Below are positions 13,477-13,600 of a stretch of 64,000 bases of DNA, piece by piece (positions within the stretch are counted from its first letter, which is position 1; every line of letters begins with the position of its first letter). The position numbers and the translations under genes are program-made. The stretch covers positions 19,308 through 83,307 of the forward strand of contig DAIDMQ010000003.1 of NCBI GenBank assembly GCA_027448945.1. The letters are read 5' to 3'. Origin of the DNA: Gallionellaceae bacterium. GTDB lineage: Bacteria > Pseudomonadota > Gammaproteobacteria > Burkholderiales > Gallionellaceae. The notes beneath the pieces are model-generated. The model ran no database searches, was not told where the DNA came from, and saw only the letters and a program-made list of their open reading frames with translations.

Positions 13477-13506
13477 AAAAACCCAGTCGGCTAAAGCGGA
13501 CTGGGT
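13477..13506 (-). terminator. Attenuator terminator upstream of metX
   Basis: On the minus strand, ACCCAGTC (13506-13499) pairs with GACTGGGT (13488-13481) around the loop CGCTTTAGCC and is followed by TTTT, an intrinsic terminator about 7 nt before the metX ribosome-binding site. The loop CGCTTTAG is perfectly complementary to CTAAAGCG at the 3' end of the upstream aptamer (13513-13520). That alternative 9-bp pairing would trap the 5' arm of the terminator, so it can serve as an antiterminator. Confidence 0.8.
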
Positions 13507-13512
13507 TCGAGT

Positions 13513-13564
13513 CGCTTTAGCTGGAATCTTTTACGTGCCCCGCAAGCTGAGTTCAAATCGGCAC
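13513..13564 (-). promoter_or_regulatory. SAM-II riboswitch controlling metX
   Basis: Read on the minus strand the element is a P1 stem GTGCC/GGCAC, a GATTTG block directly after the 5' arm, CTTGC before the 3' arm, then GTAAAA and finally AGCTAAAG. Order and spacing match the alphaproteobacterial SAM-II (metA) class: stem, GAUUUG, CUUGC, stem, UAAA, GCUAAAG. SAM-II aptamers bind S-adenosylmethionine in an H-type pseudoknot that sequesters the GCUAAAG tail. Here SAM binding would free the terminator loop and stop metX transcription. The assignment is by eye; covariance-model scoring was not possible. Confidence 0.82.
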
Positions 13565-13571
13565 GGCGCAG

Positions 13572-13600
13572 AGTTTCCGTGATTTGGCTGTGACTGTCAA
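13572..13600 (-). promoter_or_regulatory. Sigma-70 promoter for metX
   Basis: TTGACA (minus strand, 13600-13595) is a perfect -35. After 17 bp comes GAAACT (13577-13572), a weak -10 (3 of 6). The predicted start near 13565-13566 coincides with the first base of the riboswitch P1 stem at 13564, which supports both assignments. A GGCCTC/GAGGCC hairpin at 13624-13646 lies between ptsI and this promoter, but it has no T-run and is not called as a terminator. Confidence 0.6.

Follow-up and report, generated by a model that had tools for sequence, protein, structure and literature searches.

The closest described relatives of the leader studied here are S-adenosylmethionine (SAM)-II riboswitches with a downstream terminator. 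This leader precedes metX on the minus strand of a 64,000-nt stretch of a Gallionellaceae genome (the window; all positions in the leader and its genes are minus-strand positions of that stretch, given 5′ to 3′). In the portions of the literature consulted, the range of SAM-II was given as Alpha-, Beta- and Gammaproteobacteria (PMC2704228), putative terminators were described behind many SAM-II RNAs and an OFF switch was suggested (Corbino et al. 2005, PMC1273637), and SAM-II RNAs with terminators were reported in beta-Proteobacteria as early as 2007 (Barrick and Breaker, PMC2258182). The consulted part of Leyn et al. 2014 (PMC4239095) reported SAM_alpha in two alphaproteobacterial orders only, and described metXZ as a new beta-proteobacterial element of metX and metZ, found in 35 genomes, with a possible terminator-antiterminator. 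In Sinorhizobium meliloti, metA and metZ have been studied; a SAM-II-driven antiterminator was, in the sections seen, not predictable for metA (PMC9373788). The first-pass annotation of the window had regarded a betaproteobacterial SAM-II attenuator as unusual and perhaps unreported, a claim that the reports of 2007 and 2014 overturn as far as their consulted parts go. It was right about what is present in the leader, and probably right about how the leader works. The window locus clearly exemplifies a known class, in line with the published generalisation. Based on modelled folds, the metX leader is very probably the SAM OFF transcription attenuator that had been predicted, in which a tail:anti-tail helix competes with the terminator.

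A SAM-II aptamer in the metX leader

To place the leader in a family, we compared it with covariance models. The Rfam model SAM_alpha (RF00521) matched 13574-13497 with 36.2 bits (E 1.6e-4), above the gathering cut-off of 36, though only just, and this was the sole Rfam match at gathering level within the 64-kb window. A second covariance model, R1, trained on 39 other loci with the window element excluded, scored 63.5 bits (E 8e-17) at 13566-13512. These two scores bear out the SAM-II identity proposed for the leader. Over the 39 loci, 100% of the cells of stem P1 (5′ strand CGTGCC, 13565-13560; 3′ strand GGCACG, 13539-13534, both from the Rfam alignment) were paired, and three of its five pairs had changed on both sides, which is covariation. 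The cells of pseudoknot P2 paired in 97.4% of cases, and five of its six pairs were invariant, so that little covariation was possible; the pairing of L1, the 5′ strand of P2 (AGCTTGC, 13548-13542), with the aptamer tail GCTAAAGCG (13521-13513) is consistent with the alignment, not proven by it. The core blocks GATTTG (13559-13554), CTTGC and GCTAAAG were all present in the window, and GATTTGA, AGCTTGC and GCTAAAG were invariant in the 39-sequence alignment A4. The genes 3′ of the aptamer are the methionine genes metX and metW, as expected for SAM-II. Judged by the covariance models, the leader belongs to the SAM-II family, and it would be expected to bind SAM.

Compared with the SAM-II RNAs with terminators described in the consulted parts of PMC1273637 and PMC2258182, the window shares P1, the P2 strands and the blocks GATTTG, CTTGC and GCTAAAG, as well as a promoter just upstream, a terminator between P2 and the open reading frame (ORF), and a methionine gene downstream. 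It differs from them in adding an explicit anti-tail in the terminator loop, and, by our own reading of the alignment, it differs from the Rfam SAM-II consensus in a shorter P2 without the CGGCC/GGCCg part. The SAM-II element of S. meliloti metZ resembles it in that a SAM-induced terminator was predicted, and a riboswitch-containing small RNA (sRNA) rises there under high-SAM conditions; it differs in its alphaproteobacterial host (PMC9373788, in the sections seen).

We also searched relatives for the element. RF00521 matched 112 of 158 family genomes at E ≤ 0.001, and R1 found the element in 148 of the 158, including 93 of 94 high-quality ones; the element is thus conserved in relatives, a point on which the SAM-II assignment could have failed. 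The source genome (G000, 2.45 Mb) carries a second SAM-II copy on another contig (39.7 bits, RF00521), and the ORF behind it reads as metZ. These results bear on the idea that the window element is a decayed or non-SAM relative, an aptamer that no longer binds SAM in front of a plain attenuator. The borderline RF00521 score would suit such decay; the intact A4-invariant blocks, the 63.5 bits of R1, the second copy before a metZ-like gene and the presence of the element in nearly all good family genomes speak against it, and we consider it very improbable.

Tail, anti-tail and terminator

The switch proposed for this leader depends on the sequence behind the aptamer. A hairpin of ACCCAGTC (5′ arm, 13506-13499) and GACTGGGT (3′ arm, 13488-13481) occupies 13506-13481, begins six nt past the tail and runs into a U-run, TTTTT (13481-13477). 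With a folding energy of -15.5 kcal/mol and its site between aptamer and ORF, it is a predicted terminator. Its loop holds the anti-tail CGCTTTAGC (13498-13490), an exact 9-nt complement of the tail, one nucleotide longer than the perfect complementarity claimed in the first-pass annotation; past one bulged C, the match is extended in the folds by ACT (13512-13510) pairing with AGT (13502-13500). The tail:anti-tail helix was calculated at -13.6 kcal/mol. Among 1468 unrelated terminator-like hairpins taken from the fetched loci as background, only 2 had a 9-nt complement of GCTAAAGCG anywhere in the hairpin. In the metX-type alignment of relatives, three of nine terminator stem pairs had changed on both sides.

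We then used ViennaRNA to fold transcripts of increasing length, with six alternative start points (13571, 13569, 13567, 13566, 13565 and 13564). For the starts at 13566, 13565 and 13564, which lie 6 to 8 nt past the -10 box, P1 formed first, and P1 plus a growing tail:anti-tail helix was the minimum free energy (MFE) structure at all 3′ ends tested in the range 13495-13481, the helix being complete at 9 bp once the 3′ end reached 13489. The terminator displaced this helix only at 3′ end 13477, when the U-run was complete. The alternative pairing of tail and terminator loop claimed for this leader was therefore borne out in the modelled truncated and progressive folds: a mutually exclusive antiterminator is predicted and is favoured until the 3′ arm of the terminator is complete. 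As this antiterminator could form first, and as P2 formation by SAM would remove the tail, the arrangement meets the needs of an attenuator. With SAM bound, the tail would be locked in P2, the terminator would form and metX would be off; with SAM absent, the terminator loop would be captured by the tail as it emerged, and RNA polymerase would read on into metX-metW. We infer that SAM binds, that transcription really terminates, that the response has this direction and that the antiterminator commits kinetically; the OFF direction and the commitment go beyond the folds themselves, because ViennaRNA models neither pseudoknot nor SAM and the terminator wins at equilibrium.

Several results weigh against this attenuator. 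The RF00521 score exceeded its cut-off by just 0.2 bits. With starts at 13567, 13569 and 13571, another 5′ hairpin replaced P1 in the MFE structure (0 P1 pairs), with tail and terminator behaving as from the other three starts. For the RNA 13565-13477, P1 plus terminator reached -25.3 kcal/mol versus -23.7 kcal/mol for P1 plus antiterminator; since the full-length leader adopts the terminator form when the model contains no ligand, read-through would need kinetic trapping. Across relatives, the total free-energy gain from the antiterminator did not go beyond that obtained when terminators were transplanted; its median percentile was 0.37 for family loci and 0.50 for others. This null comparison counts against a purely energetic reading. 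Finally, the free-state pairs of the metX-type alignment showed no covariation beyond shuffles.

An alternative is that the aptamer acts mainly on translation, a SAM-induced structure hiding the ribosome site of metX while the hairpin is a constitutive attenuator. Translational control is probable in a Sargasso Sea SAM-II RNA and was shown in S. meliloti metA, whose downstream terminator was not predicted to be SAM-responsive in the sections seen of PMC9373788, and the probable Shine-Dalgarno sequence of the window, GGAG (13470-13467), stands only 6 nt past the U-run. That sequence, however, lies outside P2 and past the hairpin, the hairpin holds an exact complement of the tail, and in 97 of 104 loci from the order the tail is closely followed by a terminator-like hairpin. 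We regard a mainly translational switch as unlikely, and prefer transcription attenuation.

Predicted pairing of P2 strands with terminators in relatives

To assess whether relatives share the tail pairing, leaders were truncated immediately 5′ of the terminator 3′ arm before folding, and tail pairing was counted from at least 4 bp. The tail paired with the 5′ side or loop of the terminator in 52 of 62 Gallionellaceae-like metX-type leaders and in 82 of 85 metZ-type leaders, compared to 27.7% and 28.6%, respectively, with transplanted unrelated terminators. Similarly, it did so in 67 of 97 loci from other families of the order (23.2% with transplanted terminators) and in 20 of 56 other loci (15.4%). 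Contiguous Watson-Crick runs of at least 6 nt between the tail and the 5′ arm plus loop were seen in 68 of the 133 loci from the family and 15 of the 97 from the order; the background rate was 0.9% of the 1468 hairpins. A pattern scan yielded at least 118 loci, 80 of them listed with names; among the matches listed, split into Gallionellaceae-like and other by the P1 sequence GTGCC and not by names, such runs were found in 3 of 14 and 8 of 42, respectively. Duplex energies of tail and L1 with the arms were tried as a discriminator and rejected, as they separated the family only partly from random terminators: energies at or below the 5th percentile were reached by the tail in 58% and by L1 in 20% of 138 family loci, and by each in 18% of 73 others.

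The family set behind these comparisons came from 145 RF00521 matches, which gave 144 loci after G143:C88, with no downstream DNA, was dropped; L143 did not fit the pattern, and identical leaders were collapsed. The alignments A1 and A2 were built without exact duplicates and without leaders longer than 105 nt (6 metZ-type, 1 metX-type).

The same loci raise the possibility that both P2 strands switch when SAM is absent, the tail to the terminator 5′ arm or loop and L1 to the 3′ arm, so that both arms would be captured. This two-sided strand swap extends the attenuator reading and does not oppose it; we put it forward tentatively, as somewhat less probable than an even chance. In the metZ-type alignment, 95.8% of free-state cells were paired, with one covarying pair. 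Of its 84 sequences, 65 had a 3′-arm letter at column 79 that fitted L1, compared to 28 in which that letter fitted its own 5′ arm; a fit of the arm to the aptamer thus often goes with a mismatch inside the terminator. The L1 motif GGAU is, however, confined to the window's genus (11 loci), which makes the covariation of columns 17 and 79 roughly one evolutionary event, and the metX-type alignment, as noted above, offers no free-state covariation. L1 runs of at least 6 nt against the 3′ arm were found in 67 of 133 family and 33 of 97 order loci (background 2.7-4.7%) and, among the pattern-scan matches listed, in 12 of 14 Gallionellaceae-like and 11 of 42 other ones; examples are runs of 11 nt (L304), 10 nt (L276) and 9 nt (L228). 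Both runs reached at least 5 nt in 64 of 133 family and 12 of 97 order loci, compared to 1.0-1.4% of the 1468 background hairpins, and in 8 of the 42 other pattern-scan matches listed, which lie outside the family; only 2 of the 14 Gallionellaceae-like matches listed had both. In addition, complementarity of L1 to the 3′ arm follows in part from P2 and terminator complementarity.

We further examined covariation between the three L1 bases before CAGCUU and the 3′ arm. In 63 distinct rows there were 81 matches versus 64.7 expected (p 0.0002), and with one locus per group (n=25) there were 29.5 versus 22.9 by permutation (median p 0.028). The permutations ignore the tree, and the groups, among which each pattern-scan locus counts as one, are not all independent. 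Registers shifted by 1 or 2 showed no covariation (14.9 vs 18.7 and 16.7 vs 16.0). The test covers those loci with GCTG in the 3′ arm and a fitting L1, omitting 200 of 300. The result is suggestive of the swap. The window copy itself fits it poorly: L1 needs two G-U pairs to match the 3′ arm, no contiguous Watson-Crick run exceeds 3, and swapping costs P1, the tail helix plus L1:3′-arm pairing being calculated at -19.1 kcal/mol versus -23.7 kcal/mol for P1 plus the tail helix. The nested form with all other pairs allowed reached -25.0 kcal/mol.

Locus layout, distribution and catalogue entries

The leader lies in a 313-bp gap between ptsI, the gene for phosphotransferase system (PTS) enzyme I and its upstream neighbour, and metX, given a metX start at TTG 13460. 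This start is probable, with GGAG 13470-13467 ahead of it. The metX product (13460-12327; homoserine O-succinyltransferase, MetX type) scored 678.9 bits with NCBIfam NF047916 MetX_succinyl (cut-off 560), and that of metW (12339-11719), which overlaps metX, scored 270.1 bits with TIGR02081 (cut-off 189.5). The claimed promoter TTGACA-17-GAAACT could be read at 13600-13572, with the -35 box at 13600-13595, a 17-nt spacer, and a weak -10 box at 13577-13572 that agrees with the reference TATAAT at 3 of 6 positions. It is kept in the metX-type relatives listed: TTGACA stood at the equivalent position, with a [GC]ANACT-like -10 box, in 24 of 24 metX-type leaders, the tally taking every second of 48 listed and including the window. 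In most of these 24 promoters, the spacer also contains AAAA(C) ahead of the -10 box; the window spacer has CCAAATC there. The AAAA(C) element is perhaps a regulator site.

To define the distribution beyond the family, we scanned 300 genomes of the order. R1 matched 232 at E ≤ 0.001 (22 of them with a best E above 1e-6, by our own reading of the table), compared to 137 for RF00521 and 52 above the Rfam cut-off. Across the class, R1 matched 71 of 143 sampled genomes; with 72 lacking a match, R1 does not match everywhere. For the 105 order loci, of which L372 was left out as a pattern misfit, a terminator-like hairpin stood near the tail in the 97 of 104 mentioned above, representing 27 of 28 families; 80 order regions had been picked mostly from high-scoring listed hits, and these counts do not describe a random sample. 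The genes 3′ of the 104 loci, assigned by tblastn for metX and metZ and by motif for the others, were metZ-like in 44, metX-like in 25, metH-like in 11 (L266, L268, L270, L271, L277, L296, L306, L307, L318, L361, L370) and metK-like in 3 (L315, L319, L321); in 17 the gene encodes a small MxDC protein, and 4 loci are without an assignment. One metH-like and one metK-like sequence matched the NCBIfam models for methionine synthase and metK, respectively, but as fragments they stayed under the cut-off.

Further observations concern what follows or surrounds the aptamer. The 17 loci with an M[FY]DC frame (L269, L278, L302, L305, L308, L312, L325, L339-L341, L343, L345, L348, L352-L354, L360) encode proteins of which 11 were read out at 95-114 aa, and 8 that were scanned matched no Pfam family. 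A MATE-like motif followed the frame in 11 of the 17, and two truncated ORFs matched NorM-type MATE models, as fragments scoring under the cut-off; these loci are perhaps a SAM-controlled transporter unit. At least two SAM-II-like elements occurred in each of L174, L184, L208, L226, L228, L240 and L250, several about 100-200 nt apart, and in some of these loci a terminator follows the first element; these may be SAM-II/SAM-V tandems like the Pelagibacter one listed in the consulted part of PMC2704228. An approximately 60-nt structured insert stood in the terminator loop of the metZ-type loci L032, L036, L039, L107 and L137 (at least 5 genomes, five genera). Of the 158 family genomes, 108 contain similar sequence, often as multiple copies, and an Rfam search with the insert at E ≤ 0.05 returned no family beyond the neighbouring aptamer; it looks like a dispersed repeat element.

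Two catalogued elements resemble the leader closely. The metXZ element, as described in the consulted part of PMC4239095, lies upstream of metX or metZ and has a pseudoknot from six conserved regions, a downstream terminator and a speculated antiterminator. The window matches its placement, before metX in a betaproteobacterium, with a terminator and a consistent P2 pairing. By its description, which was compared in place of its alignment, metXZ would be SAM-II. The second is RF02424 (Bp2_287, or Bp2_Cand287_SIPHT), for which the authors proposed a cis-acting methionine element in the part consulted of PMC3521395. In a 12-locus Rfam scan, RF02424 overlay the SAM-II leader in all three Paraburkholderia loci (L157:638-815, minus strand; L158:4186-4383, plus strand; L173:2151-2324, minus strand) at 112-141 bits. 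Each match is antisense to the riboswitch, and in this respect Bp2_287 differs. By our own sequence reading, the L157 leader lies between PurF-like and MetZ-like ORFs and precedes the latter. This 'Burkholderia sRNA' is probably a mis-stranded riboswitch leader, and Bp2_287 would then be SAM-II. The words SAM-II and SAM_alpha were absent from the main text of PMC3521395 as far as it was available, and no title or abstract start among those listed by searches of the open-licence PMC literature equated metXZ or Bp2_287 with SAM-II, though full texts could differ.

Two points are new here: the two-sided strand swap, which is only moderately supported, and the proposed assignment of metXZ and RF02424 to SAM-II. 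A wider generalisation is possible yet, in our judgement, rather less likely to hold than to fail: beta- and gammaproteobacterial SAM-II attenuators would be strand-swap switches whose terminator is a decoy copy of P2, in which the 5′ arm imitates L1 and the 3′ arm imitates the tail, with each P2 strand pairing one arm when SAM is absent; metXZ and RF02424 would be the same switch, overlooked since most forms score below the cut-off of an Rfam model named for Alphaproteobacteria. The window locus is unusually easy to test, as the switch should hinge on a single 9-nt segment of the loop. If the comparison with relatives is right, two catalogue entries of unknown function could merge into SAM-II, and across many of the order's families one riboswitch would account for the regulation of metX, metZ, metH and metK.
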